From Microscillaceae bacterium (GTDB lineage Bacteria; Bacteroidota; Bacteroidia; Cytophagales; Microscillaceae), in contig JAAUUB010000009.1 of NCBI GenBank assembly GCA_012031215.1, positions 1 to 47,541 on the forward strand: a stretch of DNA of 47,541 nt, read 5' to 3'. Below, piece by piece: positions 14,219-22,639 of this stretch. Both the position numbers and the translations under genes were made by a program. Positions within the stretch are counted from its first letter, which is position 1. Every line of letters begins with the position of its first letter. The notes under the pieces were generated by a model. The model ran no database searches and had not been told where the DNA came from. It worked only from the letters and a program-made list of their open reading frames with translations.

Positions 14219-16688
14219 TTGAATAAGCAAACCCAGATTTTGACCAATTCAGCCCAACAACCAACGGGCGGAAATGATGCCTTCAATGAAATTGATTTGG
14301 GTAAGATTTTGGGCATCCTCCGAAAAAGTATCCCCTGGATTATTCTCCTCAATGCCCTGAGCATTCTGGGTGCTTATACATATTTACGATACTACAAGCC
14401 CATTTATGAATCAAGCTCCAGTCTTAAGCTGACCATCAAAAACCAATCATCTTTGCAAGGCATCTACGGGATATTGGGCGCAAACAACGATGATAATCTG
14501 AAGCAACTTGCGGGAGAAATTGAGTTTATTCGCTCCGACATTATCATAGATGAAATCATTCGTAAGCTCAAGCTCGACATTAGCTACCACACACAAGGCA
14601 ATTTTCTGGATAGTGAGATTTACCCACATAGCCCCTTCCAGATAGAGGCCGAGGTCTTAAATCCGGCCTTTTGTAACCAAAAAATTTTTGTGCGATTTCT
14701 CAATGATAAATCCTACCAGTTGCGCTATGCCCGGGGCGAAGAAGAATACCAACAAACATTTCGCATTGGCAAAAGCATCAACACCCCGGATTTCAAACTA
14801 ATGGTGAGTTTTCGCAATGCCTACCAGAAAGAAATGTCGGCCCAAAACTACTTCTTTATTGTTTATAGCAAACCAGCCTTACAAGCCAATCTTCGTAAAA
14901 ACCTTAAAGTAGGCATCACCAAGCCCGAAGCCCGCATCATTGATATTTCTTTTACCGACCATACCCCGGCCAAAGCCCAACATATCGTTGCGGCCATTGA
15001 TTCGGCTTACATGGAAAAAAGCGTAGAAGAGAAAAACAAATCTAATCGCCAGCAAATTTCTTTTCTGAATGACCAACTCAAGCAATTTGAAGATTCACTC
15101 ACTTTGTATGAATCTCAAATTCAGAACTTTTTTCTTGAAAATAAAACCAAAAACATAGACGATAAGCTCGAGAAATCTATTCAAAACATAGAAAAACTGG
15201 TAGCCGAGAAACAAAGGCTGGCCAAAAACTTAGCCTTTTGCGCGAGCTGGAGCAGTTGGTGGTGCAGGAAGCCCCGCTCAAAGACTTTATGCCGCTGGTG
15301 CCTTTCTTAGAAAATGACAATATTGGCCAGCAAATACAATCTTTTTATAAGCGCATCGAGGACCGTGAGTTGCTCAAAATCCAGGAAAATGTGGATAAAA
15401 ACAACACCTACCGGGCCAAAAAGCTTAATATGCAAGTGCAACTAGACCGGGAGACCCTCCTGGAGTTGGTCATGGCCAATAAAAAACTACTTTATGAGCA
15501 GTTGAGCGAAGCAAATGCCCAATTGATTGAGGTAGAAAACTCACTTGTGGGCCTTCCCTCTAAGGGCCGTGAGTTTAACCGTATTAACCGCCTTTACAGT
15601 CAATTTGACCAATACTACGCCAGCTTGCTCAACAAACGCACGGAGATAAAAATTGCCGAAGCGGGCATCGTGCCGGAGTTCATTATCCTCTCCCCGGCCA
15701 GCCTTCCCCAGATACCAATTGCCCCGGTAAAGTTTCAATTCTATGCCATTGCGGGGGCTTTGGGTTTTTTTCTGAGCCTGGTGATGGTAGCCGGGCGCTA
15801 CCTGGCGCACAATACCATTACCAACCAGGCGGAGCTCGAGCGCCTGGTATCGGCTCCGGTCTTGGGCATTATTCCCGAATACCGCAAAACCAAGCTCAAA
15901 CACACCAAACTGGTGGTCTCCCAAAACCCCAAATCTTCTATCAATGAAGCCCTGCGCTCCGTGAGGACCAACCTGGATTATATGCTGCCCAGTGGCAAAG
16001 GCCTGTACAATGCGGAGGGTTGCATTGTCTTTTCTATCACCTCTACCATCAGCGGCGAAGGAAAAACTTTTGTTGCATCAAACCTGGGGGGCATCATCGC
16101 AATGGCCAACCTAAAAGTAATTATTCTGGACTTTGATATGCGCAAGCCCAAACTCCATCTGGCCTTCAATGCCGAAAACCAGCAAGGTGTCAGCAGCATC
16201 CTGATTGGCAAGAAGACGGTTGAGGAGTGTATGCAACCAACCGAAATCGGTAATCTATTTTTTATTTTCCTCCGGCCCTACCCCCCCCCAATCCCTCCGA
16301 GCTGATTTTACGCGAAGATTTTGAAATGCTCATTGATTCGCTCCGGCCCCAGTTTGACATTATCATCATCGATACCCCCCCGGTGGGCCTGGTTACAGAT
16401 GGGATTCTGATTATGCAGAACGTAGATGTGCCCATTTATGTCTTAAAAGCCAATTACTCCAAGAAAATATTTACCAAGAATATCAATCGCCTCATTCAGA
16501 CCAATAATTTTAGCAACCTGGCCGTTATTCTGAATGCCGTCAAGAGAACCCGTGCTGGTTATGGCTACGGCGGCTATGGCTATGGTGGCTATGGCTATGG
16601 CTACGGCGGCTATTACGAGGATGAGAAAGAAGGAAGATGGGCCAAAATCTGGAAAAGGCTCTTCAAGAAAGCAGATAAAGAAATATGA
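14219..16688 (+). CDS. Wzc-like bacterial tyrosine autokinase (frame broken twice)
   Basis: Co-polymerase and BY-kinase controlling length and export of capsule/exopolysaccharide. The N-terminal Wzz domain starts with a membrane segment (IPWIILLNALSILGAYTYL) and has a long periplasmic coiled region with a second membrane helix (FQFYAIAGALGFFLSLVMVAG). The cytoplasmic kinase shows Walker A STISGEGKTF, Walker A' VIILDFDMRKP and Walker B IIIIDTPPVG, then a Gly/Tyr cluster (16557-16616) as autophosphorylation tail. Frames break at 15236-15239 (T4, one short; restores NLAFLRELEQLV) and between 16265 and 16289, where a T-run and a 9-C run together appear to carry two extra bases (restores SGPTPPNPSEL). 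The corrected protein is ~822 residues, the usual size. The stop overlaps the phosphatase start by 4 bp. Confidence 0.92.
16557..16616 (+). repeat. Gly-Tyr codon repeat encoding the Wzc tyrosine cluster
   Basis: Twenty codons alternate Gly and Tyr (GGY/GY units, repeats of GGCTAT and variants), giving nine tyrosines, followed by an acidic EDEKEG stretch. In BY-kinases a C-terminal tyrosine cluster is autophosphorylated in trans; this one is unusually regular. The repeat could vary in length by slippage. Confidence 0.8.
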
Positions 16689-17443
16689 TACAATTTTCAA
16701 TCCGGCATTTTCTTCGTAAAAGATTTTATGAGCATGCCGAAGAAATAGTGAAATCGCCCTTTCGGGTGGATGTTCACTCTCACTTATTACCGGGCATTGA
16801 TGATGGTGCCCGCACTTTAGAAGAAAGCCTCGGACTTTTGAAGGGCTTCTGGCAAATGGGCTATCAAAAGGTTATCACTACCCCGCATATTATGGGTGAT
16901 TTTTATCGAAACACCCCTGCCATCATTCGTCAGAAGGAAGAGGAAGTGAGGAAGGCGCTGCTCGAGGCCGGCATACCTATCGCCCTGGAGGCCGCCGCCG
17001 AATATTATCTGGATGAATGGTTTATTCATCTGCTCGAGCAACGCAAGGAAATACTCACTTTTGGGAATAAATACTTGCTGTTTGAAACGGGCTTTGCCAA
17101 TATGCCACATCAACTTTTTGAAGTCATCTTTGAGATGCAAACCCAGGGCTACCAACCCATTTTGGCCCATCCCGAGCGTTATGTTTATCTTCAGGAGAAT
17201 CCAAACAAGCTCGATAAAATCGTGGAACGGGGCGTAGGCTTGCAAATCAATCTTAATTCGCTCAATGGCTTTTATGGACCGACCGTCAAAGAGCTGGCCG
17301 AAAAAATCTTGGCAAGCTACCCCGTGAAATTATTGGGTTCTGACTGCCACAAGCAGGCCCATTTAGAAAATCTGCGCAAAATCTTGGCTCTGCCGCGTCT
17401 CCAAAAGTGGAACCAGCCTACACTATTGAACCATAGTTTGTAG
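16685..17443 (+). CDS. CpsB/YwqE-type tyrosine-protein phosphatase (PHP family)
   Basis: A 252-residue manganese-dependent PHP-fold phosphatase that removes phosphate from the BY-kinase tyrosine cluster. The metal ligands are visible: VDVHSHLLPGIDDGA (HxH and the Asp pair), VITTPHIMGDFY, LAHPERYVYL and LLGSDCHKQAH. Family length is ~250, so it is complete. The start ATG overlaps the stop of the kinase gene (ATGA), which shows translational coupling and supports the assignment of the kinase as its substrate. A basic N-terminal extension (FLRKRFYEHAEEIVKSPF) of ~20 residues precedes the catalytic domain. Confidence 0.93.
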   Translation: MIQFSIRHFLRKRFYEHAEEIVKSPFRVDVHSHLLPGIDDGARTLEESLGLLKGFWQMGYQKVITTPHIMGDFYRNTPAIIRQKEEEVRKALLEAGIPIALEAAAEYYLDEWFIHLLEQRKEILTFGNKYLLFETGFANMPHQLFEVIFEMQTQGYQPILAHPERYVYLQENPNKLDKIVERGVGLQINLNSLNGFYGPTVKELAEKILASYPVKLLGSDCHKQAHLENLRKILALPRLQKWNQPTLLNHSL

Positions 17444-17478: not shown

Positions 17479-18483
17479 ATGTTATTGATTACGGGGGGAA
17501 ATGGCTTAGTAGGCAGTTTTATTATCCAGCACTTTTGGCAAGAAGGCATCCCCATTCGGGCCATTATCCGCCCGGATGCCCGCCTGGATTTGCTTCCCGC
17601 TAAAATCAGGACACAAATAGAATGGATTCCGCTTCGCCTTGACGAAATGCCCGACCTAAGCCCTTATTTGCAGGGCGTACAATACTTGGTGCATGCCGCG
17701 GCCCAAGTAAGTTTATTGCCAACTTCACGTCGCCAGATGTATCGTACGAATGTACTGACAACCCGGCATCTGGTCAATACGGCCTTGCAATATCCTGGCA
17801 TCACCTTTTGCCAGGTCAGCTCCATTGCGGCCCTGGGGCAGGGCCGTTTGCCCCAAAGCCGCGAAATAAATGAAAAAGCCCGTTGGGAAAACGAAGACCA
17901 GGCCTCTTTCTATGCCCAAACCAAGTATTGGGCCGAGCTGGAAGTCTGGCGGGGTATGGCCGAAGGCCTTAAAGCTTTGATTGTCAATCCTTCCTTTGTA
18001 TTAGGCCCGGGGCGTTGGCAAGAAAGCAGCACCCAAATTTTTGAATATGTATGGAAAGGTGGACGGTATTTTCCCAAAGGATGGCTCAATTATGTGGACG
18101 TTCGTGATGTAGCACAACTCATCTTCAAGCTTTCCCAGCAGCACCCTTCGGGCGAGCGTTATATTTTGAATGCGGGTACAATGGCATTTGAAGATATATT
18201 GCCCGCTATGGCCCGGCACCTGGGCTTGCCCAAAAAGCCCTGGCTCCCGCTCAGCCCCGGGCGTGCTGAATTGGGTATTTGGGGAGCCTGGATGCAAAGT
18301 TGGTTTACGGGCAAAAAGCCCGGCTTTAACCGGGCAGCACTCCAATCGATGAATCGGCAAGTACGGTATTCTAATCAAAAAATAGTTCAGCGCCTTGATT
18401 ATCAGTTTTTTGATTTAGAAGATACGCTGGCCTGGGCCGCCCAATCGCTGATAAAAAAGTATGACCTGAAGGTAAATCGCTAA
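17479..18483 (+). CDS. NAD-dependent epimerase/dehydratase (extended SDR)
   Basis: A 334-residue extended short-chain dehydrogenase. The Rossmann motif MLLITGGNGLVGSFI binds NAD(P), the active-site pair is Tyr-Lys in YAQTKYWAE, and FCQVSSIAALG provides the catalytic Ser. LIVNPSFVLGPGRW and YVDVRDVAQLI are group features of dihydroflavonol-reductase-like SDRs. Placed 35 bp after the phosphatase, it may act on a nucleotide sugar or a lipid in the envelope pathway, but the 4-reductase-like features make a small-molecule ketone or aldehyde equally possible. It has no signal or membrane segment. Confidence 0.88.
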   Translation: MLLITGGNGLVGSFIIQHFWQEGIPIRAIIRPDARLDLLPAKIRTQIEWIPLRLDEMPDLSPYLQGVQYLVHAAAQVSLLPTSRRQMYRTNVLTTRHLVNTALQYPGITFCQVSSIAALGQGRLPQSREINEKARWENEDQASFYAQTKYWAELEVWRGMAEGLKALIVNPSFVLGPGRWQESSTQIFEYVWKGGRYFPKGWLNYVDVRDVAQLIFKLSQQHPSGERYILNAGTMAFEDILPAMARHLGLPKKPWLPLSPGRAELGIWGAWMQSWFTGKKPGFNRAALQSMNRQVRYSNQKIVQRLDYQFFDLEDTLAWAAQSLIKKYDLKVNR

Positions 18484-18610: not shown

Positions 18611-20009
18611 ATGTTAGACCAAACTAATCCCGAAAAAGCGCCCTTTTTAATTCAAAGCTTCGAGAAAATGCTCCACCACCAGGGAGCCTCGTATTTAGAA
18701 TGGGAAGATTTTGAAAGATAATCCAGTATTATCAGGACCATGAGCAGTTTCAAAAAGCGCTCACGGCTTGCGATTGGGCCATTTCGCAGCACCCCTTTTC
18801 AGTAGAACCCCGGCGCTCCCGAGTTGAAATACTGGCTCAGACTGAGCGATTTTCGGAAGCTTTGTGGGAAACGGAGCAATTGCTGGCTCAGCATCCCTTT
18901 GACGAGGAAATCCTGTTTTTTGTGGAAAGTATTTATACCCGATTAGGTAAATATCAAAGGGCGATTCCGGTTTTAGAGCAGCTCCTGGAATGGCAGCCTG
19001 ATTCAGACGAGGTCTATTTTCGCCTGGCTGTATGCTTACCAAAACCTGGGAAATTATCGCTTGGCCGTGCGTTATTATAAAAAAACCTTGCGCCTCAATA
19101 ATTGCCCAGGAGCACGCCGTCTATGAACTCAACTATTGCCTGGATACCCTGGGCGAGCTGGAAATTCACCTGCCCTTTTACCGGCAATTTACGGAGCGCG
19201 ACCCTTACGCCTATCGAGCCTGGTACAATCTGGGGCTTACTTATGCCAAACTAGGCGACTTTTCCGAAGCCATTCAAGCTTTTGACTATGCCGTGGTGAT
19301 TCAGGAAGACTTTACCGCCGCACACGTAGAGATGGGGCATGCCTACATGGATATGCAACATTATCGCAAAGCCCAGAATTGCTACACCCAGGCCCTGGTG
19401 CATGGCGACGAAGGCCCCGATTTGCTCTGCTGTCTGGGTGCCTGTTATGAAAAACAACAGGATTATGAATCGGCAGTCTTTAATTATAAAGCCGCACTCA
19501 AGCTAGACAATACCTGGGAGGATGCCTGGTTTGGAATAGGTGCCTGCCTTTATGCCCAGGGAAAATGGTATGAAGCCCTTTATTTCTTGAAAAAGGCCAT
19601 TCAGTGCAATGGCCATAATGAAGTGTTTTGGATTGCAGTAGGCGACACCGAATACCGCCTCGGCAATGTGCTCAACAGCCTGGAAGCCTATGCCCAAGCC
19701 GAAAAAATTTGCCCGGTCAATGCACATCTTTGGCTCAACTGGTCTCAGGTTTATTACGAACAAGGCGACCTACAACAAGCCATTGAGTTACTACAAGAAG
19801 GCACCGAAGAATGTCCCGAAGCTGCCGAGCTTCAATATCGCCTGGCTGCTTATCTGCTCGTAGATGGACAATATGAGGAGGCTGTGCAATATCTGGAAGA
19901 AGCCTTGCTCTTGCATTATGAAGGCCACACCGCGCTGTATGAATTTTTTCCCCGTTTAGAATCCCAAAAAGCCATTTTTAAAATTATTGAACAATTCAGA
20001 CCTCGGTAA
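18611..20009 (+). CDS. Cytoplasmic TPR protein (three frame breaks)
   Basis: A ~465-residue tetratricopeptide repeat protein with no signal peptide. ATG at 18611 follows a TTGAGGAG-like ribosome binding site (~18597-18605), rare for this phylum, which decides the start. About ten TPR units cover nearly the whole length, for example AYRAWYNLGLTYAKLGDF, AHVEMGHAYMDMQHYRKAQ and VFWIAVGDTEYRLGNVLNSL. Frame breaks: one base missing near 18717-18720, one extra base near 19030 and one extra T at 19102-19103; correcting them restores TPR sequence throughout (RLAYAYQNLGNYRLAVRYYK). Two of the three are not in long homopolymers. It ends 2 bp before the phosphosulfolactate synthase gene, so the two are likely cotranscribed. 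The function is unknown beyond protein-protein binding. Confidence 0.85.
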
Positions 20010-20011
20010 CA

Positions 20012-20782
20012 ATGCAAAACTACTTTTTGAAAGACCTGCCAGAGCGTACCCAAAAACCCCGCAAAGAAGGCCTGACCATGGTCATGGACAAAGGCCTGAG
20101 CGTACGTGAGGCCGAAGATTTTTTGAGTATTGCGGGTGATTATACTGATGTAATAAAGCTGGGCTGGGCCACTTCCTATGTCAGTGCCCAACTGAGCGAA
20201 AAGCTGGAAGTATATCGCCAAGCTAATATCCCTTTTTACTTTGGGGGCACATTGTTTGAGGCCTTCATTGTCCGAAATCAATTTGAGGATTACCGCAGGG
20301 TCCTAGACAAATACAAAATGCCCCTGGTCGAGGTTTCGGATGGTTCCATTGAGATTCCGCACGAAGAAAAATGTCAGTATATCCGTACCCTCTCCGAGCA
20401 GGTGCAGGTACTCTCGGAAGTAGGCTCTAAAGATGCCGAAAAAATCATTCCTCCCTACAAGTGGATAGAACTGATGCAAGCCGAGCTGGAAGCCGGAGCC
20501 TGGAAGGTGATTGGCGAAGCCCGCGAAAGTGGCACGGTGGGCCTTTTTCGTTCTTCGGGCGAAGTGCGCTCGGGCTTGGTCCAGGAAATATTGACCAAAA
20601 TCCCTTCGGAGAAAATTATCTGGGAGGCCCCCCAAAAGTCGCAGCAGGTTTGGTTTATCAAGCTCATTGGCCCCAATGTAAACCTGGGCAATATTGCCGC
20701 CAATGAAGTGATTCCGCTGGAAACGCTAAGGCTGGGCTTGCGGGGCGATACCTTTGATTTTTTCTTAAACAAAGCACTTTAA
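20012..20782 (+). CDS. comA: Phosphosulfolactate synthase (ComA family)
   Basis: Family enzymes add sulfite to phosphoenolpyruvate to give (R)-phosphosulfolactate (EC 4.4.1.19), the first step to coenzyme M in methanogens and to sulfolactate in Bacillus spores. The 256-residue TIM-barrel protein has the family landmarks GLTMVMDKGLSVREAEDFL, VIKLGWATSYV, PFYFGGTLFEAF, LVEVSDGSIEI, KVIGEARESGTVGLF and WEAPQKSQQVWFI, ending NVNLGNIAANEVIPLETLR. No comB phosphatase or comC dehydrogenase homologue is in the window. In Bacteroidota the product could feed cysteate for sulfonolipids such as capnine; this is inference. It lies between a TPR gene (2 bp) and a DUF368 gene (21 bp) in one operon. Confidence 0.88.
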   Translation: MQNYFLKDLPERTQKPRKEGLTMVMDKGLSVREAEDFLSIAGDYTDVIKLGWATSYVSAQLSEKLEVYRQANIPFYFGGTLFEAFIVRNQFEDYRRVLDKYKMPLVEVSDGSIEIPHEEKCQYIRTLSEQVQVLSEVGSKDAEKIIPPYKWIELMQAELEAGAWKVIGEARESGTVGLFRSSGEVRSGLVQEILTKIPSEKIIWEAPQKSQQVWFIKLIGPNVNLGNIAANEVIPLETLRLGLRGDTFDFFLNKAL

Positions 20783-20803
20783 GCCAACCTTTGGTGCAAT
20801 GGC

Positions 20804-21754
20804 ATGAAATCAACTTCCTCAAATAACTGGCCTTTGCTCTATCTCAAAGGCTTGGCTATGGGAGCAGCCGATGCCGTACCGGGCGTTTCGGGGGGCACGG
20901 TGGCTTTCATAACCGGAATTTATGAAAGATTACTGGGCGCGATTCGCGGCTTGAACGGCTCAGCCCTGCGCCTCCTGCTCAAAGGGAAATTTTCGGCTTT
21001 CTGGCAGAAAGTTGATGGAACCTTTTTGGTGATATTGCTGGGAGGCATTCTCTCCTCCTTGCTCATATTTTCACGCTTGATTCTCTACTGGCTTGAAACC
21101 GTACCCGAAATCCTGTGGGCCTTTTTCTTTGGGCTGATTGTTGCTTCTTGCTGGCTAGTGGCAAAAGGGATTCCCCGCTGGAACCTGGGCACAGTGCTGT
21201 TTTTAGTGCTGGGTACTATTTCTGGATACCTGCTCACGGTACTCACCCCAGCCAATACGCCTGAGCACCTGCTTTTTATATTTCTTTCGGGTGCTATTGC
21301 CATTTGTGCCATGATTTTGCCTGGCATTTCAGGTAGTTTTATCCTAGTCATTTTAGGCAAATACGAATTTATTTTTACGGCTCTGAAAGCATTTCAGCTC
21401 AAAATCCTTCTCACTTTTGCGCTGGGCTGTGTGGCGGGTTTGCTGGCTTTTTCGCACGTGGTGCATTGGCTATTGCGCAAATTTCACAATGCCACGGTAG
21501 CTTTTCTAACCGGTATTATGATTGGCTCGCTCAATAAAATATGGCCCTGGAAGCAGGTTTTGGAGTATTACACCAACCGCCACGGCGAACAAAAACCCCT
21601 CCGAGAGGTCAATATATGGCCCGGTGCTTATCAGGAACTTACCGGTCAGGCTCCGCATCTTTGGTGGGCTTTGGGCTTTGCCGTGTTGGGCTTTTTGCTG
21701 GTATGGGGGATTGAAATGGCGGCCCGCCAAAGTCAGAAAGTACACCAATCTTAA
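20804..21754 (+). CDS. DUF368 membrane protein, PopT-type undecaprenyl-phosphate translocase candidate
   Basis: A 316-residue polytopic membrane protein with about eight helices. The two inverted-repeat signatures of DUF368 are present: AADAVPGVSGGTVAFITGIYERLL near the N terminus and AMILPGISGSFILVILGKYE in the middle, plus FLTGIMIGSLNKIWPWK. Members (PopT) have been reported to return undecaprenyl phosphate across the inner membrane for reuse in peptidoglycan and surface polysaccharide synthesis; that fits the nearby polysaccharide block. It starts 21 bp after comA. It is complete and undisturbed. Confidence 0.9.
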   Translation: MKSTSSNNWPLLYLKGLAMGAADAVPGVSGGTVAFITGIYERLLGAIRGLNGSALRLLLKGKFSAFWQKVDGTFLVILLGGILSSLLIFSRLILYWLETVPEILWAFFFGLIVASCWLVAKGIPRWNLGTVLFLVLGTISGYLLTVLTPANTPEHLLFIFLSGAIAICAMILPGISGSFILVILGKYEFIFTALKAFQLKILLTFALGCVAGLLAFSHVVHWLLRKFHNATVAFLTGIMIGSLNKIWPWKQVLEYYTNRHGEQKPLREVNIWPGAYQELTGQAPHLWWALGFAVLGFLLVWGIEMAARQSQKVHQS

Positions 21755-21862: not shown

Positions 21863-22639
21863 ATGCAAAAATACGGATTAATTGGATACCCACTTAGCCA
21901 CTCTTTCTCGAAGCAATTTTTTGAGGCCAAGTTTGCCCGTGAGCAACTTCAGGAAGCAAGTTATGAATTGTATGAGCTAAAATCTTTGCAAGAACTGCCC
22001 CCCTTGCTGGCGCGCGAACCGGGGCTGTTGGGCTTGAATGTAACCATTCCCTACAAGCAAAAAATACTTCCTTATCTTAAAAATCTTTCGCCTTCGGCAC
22101 AAACGGTTGGGGCTGTCAATGTCATTAAAATCAATGCAGATAAATCACTTACTGGCCATAACACCGATTATTACGGTTTTTTGCAATCGCTCAGCCACCA
22201 ATTAGGCGAATACAAAAATCTGCGTAGCCTAGATGGTTATCGTGCCCTGGTGCTGGGCACTGGCGGTGCTTCTCAGGCCGTACAGGCGGCCTTGCAAAGC
22301 CTAAAAATTCCGTTTCAGTTGGTGTCGCGCACCAAAAAGCAGCCCAAAAACTTGCTCTACGAAAACCTGAGCGAAGCCCTCATTGCTGAGCACCGCCTTA
22401 TTATCAATACTACCCCATTGGGCATGTATCCACAAACAGATACCTGTCCCCCAATCCCTTATCAATTCCTAAACGCTCAGCATCTGTTGTATGATTTGGT
22501 TTATAATCCCGAAATGACCTTGTTTCTACAAAAGGGAAATGAAGCAGGAGCCAGGATAAAGGGTGGGCTGGAAATGTTGCATTTGCAGGCCGAAAAAGCT
22601 TGGGAAATATGGCAATCGCCCGAAATATCAACAAAATGA
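21863..22639 (+). CDS. aroE: Shikimate dehydrogenase
   Basis: Reduces 3-dehydroshikimate to shikimate with NADPH in aromatic amino acid synthesis. The 258-residue protein starts MQKYGLIGYPLSHSFSKQFF, the substrate-binding SxS motif being SHSFS. LGLNVTIPYKQKILPYL contains the catalytic Lys, NTDYYGFLQSL the conserved Asp, and VLGTGGASQAVQAAL the NADPH loop. The C-terminal LVYNPEMTLFLQKGNEAGARIKGGLEMLHLQAEKAWEIW is standard. Length is slightly short for the family (270-280). It lies 108 bp after the DUF368 gene and could have its own promoter. Confidence 0.95.
   Translation: MQKYGLIGYPLSHSFSKQFFEAKFAREQLQEASYELYELKSLQELPPLLAREPGLLGLNVTIPYKQKILPYLKNLSPSAQTVGAVNVIKINADKSLTGHNTDYYGFLQSLSHQLGEYKNLRSLDGYRALVLGTGGASQAVQAALQSLKIPFQLVSRTKKQPKNLLYENLSEALIAEHRLIINTTPLGMYPQTDTCPPIPYQFLNAQHLLYDLVYNPEMTLFLQKGNEAGARIKGGLEMLHLQAEKAWEIWQSPEISTK

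Follow-up and report, generated by a model that had tools for sequence, protein, structure and literature searches.

A ComA-family phosphosulfolactate synthase as the probable start of a third cysteate route to the sulfonolipids of Bacteroidota

What does a ComA-family enzyme do in a bacterium of the Bacteroidota? The question is raised by a gene at positions 20012–20782 (forward strand) of a 47,541-nucleotide stretch of DNA from a Microscillaceae bacterium (GCA_012031215.1, contig JAAUUB010000009.1; hereafter the window), which encodes an intact protein of 256 residues, assigned to the (2R)-phospho-3-sulfolactate synthase (ComA) family by Pfam, by sequence matches to solved structures in the PDB, and by its predicted fold. 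ComA, ComB, and ComC catalyze the opening three reactions of archaeal coenzyme M synthesis, and the original prediction for this window had hinted at an orphan ComA next to a lipid-carrier translocase (PopT), possibly with a role in sulfonated envelope lipids. The analysis described here indicates that ComA is probably an overlooked source of cysteate for sulfonolipids, in that it would start a third route to this precursor in Bacteroidota, leading from phosphoenolpyruvate (PEP) and sulfite to cysteate and on to capnine. In the open literature no paper dealing directly with such a ComA-to-sulfonolipid route was found, subscription journals being mostly outside the coverage of the search.

The family membership of the protein is clear. 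Pfam PF02679 matches the open reading frame with 316 bits against a cut-off of 25.2 and over the whole model (positions 1–243 of 243), and phmmer aligns it with the phosphosulfolactate synthase of Bacillus subtilis (1u83, E 7.8e-62, the best-scoring solved relative) and with ComA of Methanocaldococcus jannaschii (1qwg, E 1.1e-49), the identity over the aligned segments being 44% and 45%, respectively; the completeness claimed in the original prediction is thereby borne out. The NCBIfam model TIGR03849 gives 259 bits, below its cut-off of 280, and because this model is named arch_ComA the miss concerns “archaeal-type ComA” and not the wider family. A structural model built from 20 Bacteroidota sequences (mean predicted local distance difference test score, pLDDT, of 85) retrieved 1qwg (E 8.4e-22) and 1u83 (E 2.4e-21) as top PDB matches in Foldseek, with TM values of 0.75–0.85, so that the modeled fold, too, appears to be that of the family. 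Among the PDB matches there were also 60 chains, explained by 9cm1, a designed icosahedral nanoparticle apparently built on a ComA chain. Across 114 Bacteroidota ComA sequences 73 positions are constant, which were chosen by this invariance and not as named catalytic residues; they are intact in the window protein, and 58 are the same in the Bacillus enzyme, 50 in that of Methanocaldococcus, and 46 in both, while four of the 27 that are not identical in both solved enzymes reflect the later start of the M. jannaschii segment. The best relatives in named records (the best 80 of at least 588) come from Cytophagales and similar Bacteroidota, among them Roseivirga, Thermonema, Pontibacter, Cyclobacterium, and Fulvivirga, at 73–79% identity, which points to a host of the Cytophagales. 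Two ComA copies each are present in six of the genomes compared below (G003, G008, G033, G081, G151, and G195, where G denotes a genome, G000 being the own genome of the window, f a family, and L a locus).

The reaction predicted from this membership is the condensation of PEP and sulfite to (2R)-phosphosulfolactate. In the proposed route, an unlinked ComB would dephosphorylate this product to sulfolactate, a dehydrogenase of the ComC family would oxidize the latter to sulfopyruvate, and a general aspartate-type aminotransferase would presumably turn sulfopyruvate into cysteate, which a SulA-type acyltransferase would join with acyl-acyl carrier protein to give 3-ketocapnine, the committed step toward the predicted sulfonolipid. 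Such a route would be the third beside CapA, which uses phosphoserine and sulfite, and the archaeal-type cysteate synthase.

Genes for three of the further steps are present in the same genome. A ComB gene lies at G000:C203:24573-25241 (PF04029, 245 bits), a ComC-family (PF02615) gene, the expected sulfolactate dehydrogenase, on G000:C264, and a SulA-type cysteate acyltransferase gene at G000:C58:7231-8475, so that the hint of an orphan ComA does not hold; the accompanying remark that no other coenzyme M gene is nearby does, the sole ComB and ComC-family matches being on other contigs (ComDE was not searched for). The SulA protein scores 587 bits to the cysteate-C-fatty acyltransferase 28eh and 585 bits to 7u7h, and less to serine palmitoyltransferase (242 bits) and KBL (221 bits). 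We take 7u7h to be the SulA structure of A. finegoldii, the PDB listing naming only a synthetase-like enzyme. According to one report (PMC9304779), SulA is distinguished by a lysine, Lys281; the SulA found here carries the AKSLPMP lysine motif, its stretch SQIFAKSLP aligning with SQLYAKSLP of 7u7h, a correspondence by motif and not by residue number. As for the two other sources of cysteate, the best CapA match (NF053679) in the genome is a 466-residue frame with 464 bits against a cut-off of 600, which in a tree groups with a cystathionine beta-synthase-like clade outside the sulA-linked CapA clade, and the archaeal-type cysteate synthase (TIGR03844) had no match at E 1e-30.

The distribution of these genes was followed in two partly shared samples, a phylum draw of 198 genomes (49 Bacteroidia and 149 from outside the class) and a class draw of 178 Bacteroidia, in which unmatched genomes past row 20 were scored negative by their absence from the match lists; SulA was counted as present at E 1e-110 or better. 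In the phylum draw, 23 of the 49 Bacteroidia carry ComA together with ComB and the other 26 carry neither; PF02615 occurs in 21 of the 23 and in three of the 26. SulA is found in 48 of the 49, and the exception, G002, is also without ComA, ComB, and PF02615, all of which are present, with SulA, in the other four genomes of its family f5. A CapA-type gene occurs in 21 of the 25 SulA-bearing Bacteroidia that lack ComA (18 of f8, two of f7, and one of f9) and stands directly before sulA in six of nine SulA loci examined from genomes without ComA (L203–L211); by the NCBIfam CapA model one member scores 649 bits, above the cut-off of 600, and another 546, below it. None of the 23 ComA-bearing Bacteroidia was assigned a CapA, their best matches to the CapA query reaching at most 422 bits, mostly in frames of 450–480 residues, and one genome giving none. 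Outside the class, ComA is present above the cut-off in 33 of the 149 genomes, and SulA in 26 of these 33 versus none of the 116 without ComA. ComB occurs in 116 of the 198 genomes, and because it is often present without ComA outside the class it is by itself not a marker.

Two arrangements around SulA genes are recorded in their own right. In G064 and G158 of f9 (L277:7178-10279 and L278:7099-10155), which are without ComA and were assigned no CapA, sulA lies between a gene for a short-chain dehydrogenase/reductase (SDR) and one for a glyoxalase/dioxygenase-fold (VOC) protein, L277 alone having been scanned for families, and the VOC protein might take part in a further mode of cysteate formation. 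In G179 (f39; L222:7472-10852) a SulA-like domain is fused with AMP-binding and phosphopantetheine-carrier domains in a frame of 1126 residues, perhaps a self-loading acyltransferase.

In the class draw, ComA is present in 149 genomes and SulA in 156, with both in 143, ComA only in six, SulA only in 13, and neither in 16 (19 discordant; Fisher p 1.3e-10); counted by family, any member sufficing, the numbers are 53, one, six, and five (p 3e-4). Where SulA occurs without ComA, other sources of cysteate are often found: seven of the 13 genomes have CapA, which in five scores above the curated cut-off and in G012 (546 bits) and G037 (508 bits) stays below it but stands beside sulA; G312 has the archaeal-type cysteate synthase instead of ComA; and in G319 (f94) sulA is preceded by a CapA-like gene (357 bits) and an SDR gene. 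In a further one, G321, which has ComB, assembly gaps may account for the missing ComA. Archaeal coenzyme M synthesis likewise swaps ComABC and a cysteate synthase. The sulA cluster of G319 (L274:5050-9231) is compact and nearly gapless, consisting of genes for a 395-residue protein with a weak GNAT match, the SDR, the CapA-like enzyme, which is dependent on pyridoxal phosphate, and SulA; the SDR is a candidate 3-ketocapnine reductase.

Since scores near 440 bits do not separate CapA from cystathionine beta-synthase, CapA was assigned by frame length, adjacency to sulA, and position in a tree of 34 proteins, which held a subset of the CapA matches of the phylum draw. CapA-family matches in ComA-bearing genomes of the class draw reach at most 489 bits among the matches listed, and those of 13 ComA-bearing genomes placed in the tree, two of them f23 genomes from the phylum draw, fall outside the CapA clade. 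The ambiguous cases are the short frames (329–355 residues) of G249, G278, and G303 in f83, of which only that of G249 is in the tree, as a long branch, and the CapA of G037, whose long branch falls narrowly outside that clade. ComB was in addition searched in 53 chosen genomes, and was found in two of 29 without ComA (G284 and G321), in all six with ComA and no SulA, in six of seven further ComA-bearing ones, and in all 11 named ones. G316 is without ComA, ComB, and SulA, while four genomes of the same genus have all three, and because this genome is 98% complete in about 30 contigs a joint loss is likelier than three gaps.

Several observations weigh against the proposed cysteate route. At the level of genes, ComA, ComB, the ComC-family gene, and sulA are mutually unlinked in the own genome, and the ComC-family gene is there in two pieces owing to a frame shift. 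The ComC of a representative of f2 (L260) scores higher to 1v9n, labeled “malate dehydrogenase” (284 bits), than to the L-sulfolactate dehydrogenase 2x06 (211 bits), and the same gene of G146, taken as L195, has NF040650 as its top family with 255 bits against a cut-off of 500. PF02615 is missing in G041, in G045, and in 24 of 25 genomes of f23, a family outside Bacteroidia, so that the dehydrogenase is unsettled there. At the level of genomes, only 23 of the 48 SulA-bearing Bacteroidia of the phylum draw have ComA; four of five f9 genomes have SulA without ComA, ComB, or an assigned CapA (the archaeal-type synthase was not searched there), and in G241, G334, and G338, the remaining three of the 13 SulA-only genomes of the class draw, SulA occurs with no ComA, ComB, or cysteate synthase found. 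Conversely, six Bacteroidia with ComA and ComB have no SulA match at the threshold used, and the seven genomes outside the class with ComA and no SulA (five of f13, two of f35) have only SulA relatives of about 33–34% identity. In G270 the archaeal-type synthase occurs alongside ComA, and G271 has ComA and SulA without ComB.

It has to be noted, in addition, that only eight changes are needed to place the route labels on a tree of 47 SulA proteins, where most rows without ComA form one group (f7, f8, f9, and f94; support 94/96) and those of f92 another, placed with ComA-bearing rows of f6 at starred support. Because the switch away from ComA thus took place rarely, in this tree two or three times, the Fisher values, which ignore shared descent, overstate the association. 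The weight rests instead on the joint absences in G002 and G316, on the separate lineage f23, and on the different replacements found where ComA is missing.

Neither the neighborhoods of ComB and ComC nor linkage add to this. The surroundings of ComB were considered as a source of the ComC and rejected, their conserved neighbor being the glycine cleavage T protein and not a dehydrogenase; among 13 clustered ComB loci, ComB appears in 12 and GcvT in 11, the two adjoining in 10 (e.g. L143:7277-9269), one of them from an f23 genome. ComC neighborhoods, read without a family scan, had no shared neighbors attributable to the pathway. The distance between ComA and SulA is about 7, 8, or 16 kb in three genomes and 25 kb in a fourth, with no ComB or ComC match in the stretches read; three cases within about 20 kb in 143 genomes being close to chance by a rough estimate, physical linkage was not used. 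The low-scoring ComA of G271 (G271:C17:11314-12018, L326; 254.8 bits) has none of the four scored neighbor families beside it, and G241, of the same genus, is without ComA and ComB and retains SulA.

The alternative that survives best, though we regard it as unlikely, is that ComA and ComB stop at sulfolactate, which would serve independently of lipids as a solute, an excreted sulfonate, or a protectant as in Bacillus spores, and that the match with SulA reflects shared descent. It would accommodate the six Bacteroidia with ComA and ComB and no SulA at the threshold used, the presence of ComA and ComB in f13 and f35 with only distant SulA relatives, and the missing ComC family in nearly all f23 genomes. 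It does not, however, predict that CapA or the archaeal-type synthase should appear where ComA is missing, that ComA should be absent jointly with SulA in G316 and G002, or that SulA outside the class should be confined to ComA-bearing genomes.

A further clue to the proposed cysteate route comes from the genes beside ComA, which were compared in two sets of loci, counting those with enough flank. In the 80 loci from named records, a TPR gene lies directly upstream in 69 of 76, DUF368 (PopT) directly downstream in 61 of 78, and AroE is found in 66 of 76; the order TPR-ComA-PopT-AroE, conserved as it is in these relatives, is not due to chance, and the TPR and PopT/DUF368 neighbors named in the original prediction are thus confirmed. 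The second set comprises 44 loci from 42 Bacteroidia families, four of which (L283, L284, L285, and L287) were picked for their nearness to SulA. Here 37 of 44 have TPR directly upstream and 24 of 43 have a separate rhodanese gene directly downstream, a fused one occurring in two more; AroE is near ComA in 21 of 41, and the count for DUF368 is 11 of 42; without the four picked loci, all of which have TPR and rhodanese, the first two counts become 33 of 40 and 20 of 39. In the 80 named loci no rhodanese was found with two queries at E 1e-4.

In some genomes the two proteins are one. Nine unusually long ComA frames (at least 370 residues) were screened in the class draw, and seven of them consist of ComA followed by a rhodanese domain (G200, G240, G270, and G295 of f43, G236 of f79, G273 and G298 of f49), fusions thus spanning three families, two of which proteins were checked with Pfam; in the remaining two, G205 and G242 of f48, the rhodanese is separate. 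Because ComA and rhodanese genes lie apart in G206, which belongs to f49 like the fused G273 and G298, fusion or splitting must have occurred within this family. A CxxGxR motif, resembling the usual active-site loop of rhodaneses, is present in 24 of the 26 rhodanese loci (24 separate and two fused), a Cys-x4-Arg variant in one, and neither in one. Thiosulfate-splitting rhodaneses release sulfite, which is a substrate of ComA. The TPR protein and, in many relatives, the adjacent or fused rhodanese are likely helpers of ComA, and the rhodanese would supply or handle sulfite for it, the fusion hinting at a possible mode of such handling.

The remaining alternatives fare worse. That the pathway continues to coenzyme M, by ComDE or a bacterial route, for some coenzyme M enzyme is very improbable; ComA, ComB, and a ComC-family gene are indeed all present in the own genome, where the search covered these three steps and not sulfopyruvate decarboxylase, but the tie between ComA and SulA and the swap with CapA would be left unexplained. 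Just as improbable is a shift of ComA to some substrate other than sulfite, of the kind suspected for its plant relatives HSA32. The score below the archaeal equivalog cut-off and the invariant residues not common to both solved enzymes could be read in this way, whereas the 46 residues that are common to both, the close pairing of ComA with ComB, and its pairing or fusion with rhodanese, a sulfur enzyme, argue against it. Least probable of all is that the cluster serves envelope polyprenyl-phosphate chemistry, with the ComA product decorating the carrier moved by PopT, for which the adjacent PopT gene here and in most named relatives and a capsule-type gene upstream might speak, but PopT adjoins ComA in only 11 of the 42 loci across Bacteroidia families and in none of the 14 f23 loci, and AroE and TPR, unrelated to the carrier, are the more constant neighbors.

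PopT is thus a frequent neighbor of ComA in close relatives and not a constant partner, and its adjacency was rejected as a clue to function, f23 pairing ComA with SulA without it. In f23, TPR and DUF368 are both absent beside ComA in 14 of 14 loci; the neighbors there (L160 and L161), considered as a clue in their turn, are glycogen enzymes, a BamG-like protein, and a TPR protein, with nothing related to sulfonates. The sulfonolipid reading of the original prediction is supported as regards a sulfolactate pathway feeding cysteate, given ComB, the ComC family, SulA, and the co-occurrence of ComA and SulA, and is not supported as regards the meaning given to the undecaprenyl-phosphate translocase.

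In the window, all on the forward strand, the TPR protein, the most constant neighbor of ComA, is open in its 3′ part at 19032–20009 (Pfam TPR), ending 2 bases before the start of ComA; compared with the protein of a relative, the gene follows one frame at 18682–19035 and another at 19080–20000, the frame changing between 19035 and 19080. ComA is followed by the PopT/DUF368-like polyprenyl-phosphate translocase at 20804–21754 (PF04018, 326 bits; 399.5 bits to the NCBIfam polyprenyl-phosphate transporter, cut-off 400) and by AroE, of the shikimate dehydrogenase family, at 21863–22639 (TIGR00507, 167 bits, cut-off 200), whose connection with the pathway is not obvious. Upstream lie an NAD-dependent epimerase/SDR at 17479–18483 (PF01370), conserved in the cluster of close relatives and, in many of the named ones, similarly placed ahead of the TPR gene, and a CpsB/CapC-type polysaccharide phosphatase at 16685–17443 (PF19567, 146 bits), a capsule protein distinct from its namesake CapC, the 3-ketocapnine reductase. 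Open reading frames at 14219–16688 resemble, by eye, a single fragmented Wzc-type gene, and the ComC-family gene (G000:C264:15502-16520) is likewise interrupted by a frame change; these two breaks and that of the TPR gene suggest indel errors in the assembly, which comprises 306 contigs.

The share of SulA-bearing Bacteroidia with ComA differs between the samples, being 143 of 156 in the class draw as against 23 of 48 in the phylum draw. The wider proposal, that most SulA-bearing lineages of Bacteroidia would need no cysteate synthase and would form cysteate from PEP and sulfite by ComA, ComB, and in part ComC, often with a sulfite-handing rhodanese docked or fused, and that at least three interchangeable starts lead to one lipid, is in our view as open to doubt as to belief. 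If the ComA route is true, the missing first steps of sulfonolipid synthesis in Cytophagales and in many families with ComA and SulA become testable, and comA as a marker of methanogens in metagenomes would be misleading for Bacteroidota. Sulfonolipids have been linked to gliding motility, inflammation, and the multicellular development of choanoflagellates, and the six acyltransferases tested include one from Algoriphagus machipongonensis, according to PMC11211663.

Compared with known systems, the genome resembles methanogens in having ComA, ComB, and a ComC-family gene together, and differs from their coenzyme M branch in being bacterial, in its unlinked genes, and in the predicted end, which would be cysteate for lipids. 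Bacillus subtilis has the best-scoring solved relative of its ComA and likewise a ComB-family gene. In Bacillus, sulfolactate has a spore role; here the presence of a cysteate acyltransferase makes sulfolactate an unlikely end product. The CapA-CapB/SulA-CapC pathway of Capnocytophaga and relatives, described in PMC11211663 and PMC10191378, likewise employs SulA/CapB as its acyltransferase and presumably shares the later steps, but draws its cysteate from phosphoserine and sulfite by CapA, whereas here it would come from PEP and sulfite by ComABC. The archaeal-type synthase, which PMC10191378 assigns to Alistipes and Odoribacter, as it assigns CapA to Capnocytophaga, is another replacement of the cysteate step before SulA, and is the one found in the SulA-bearing G312; it differs from the route proposed here in being a single enzyme, and is without a match in the own genome.

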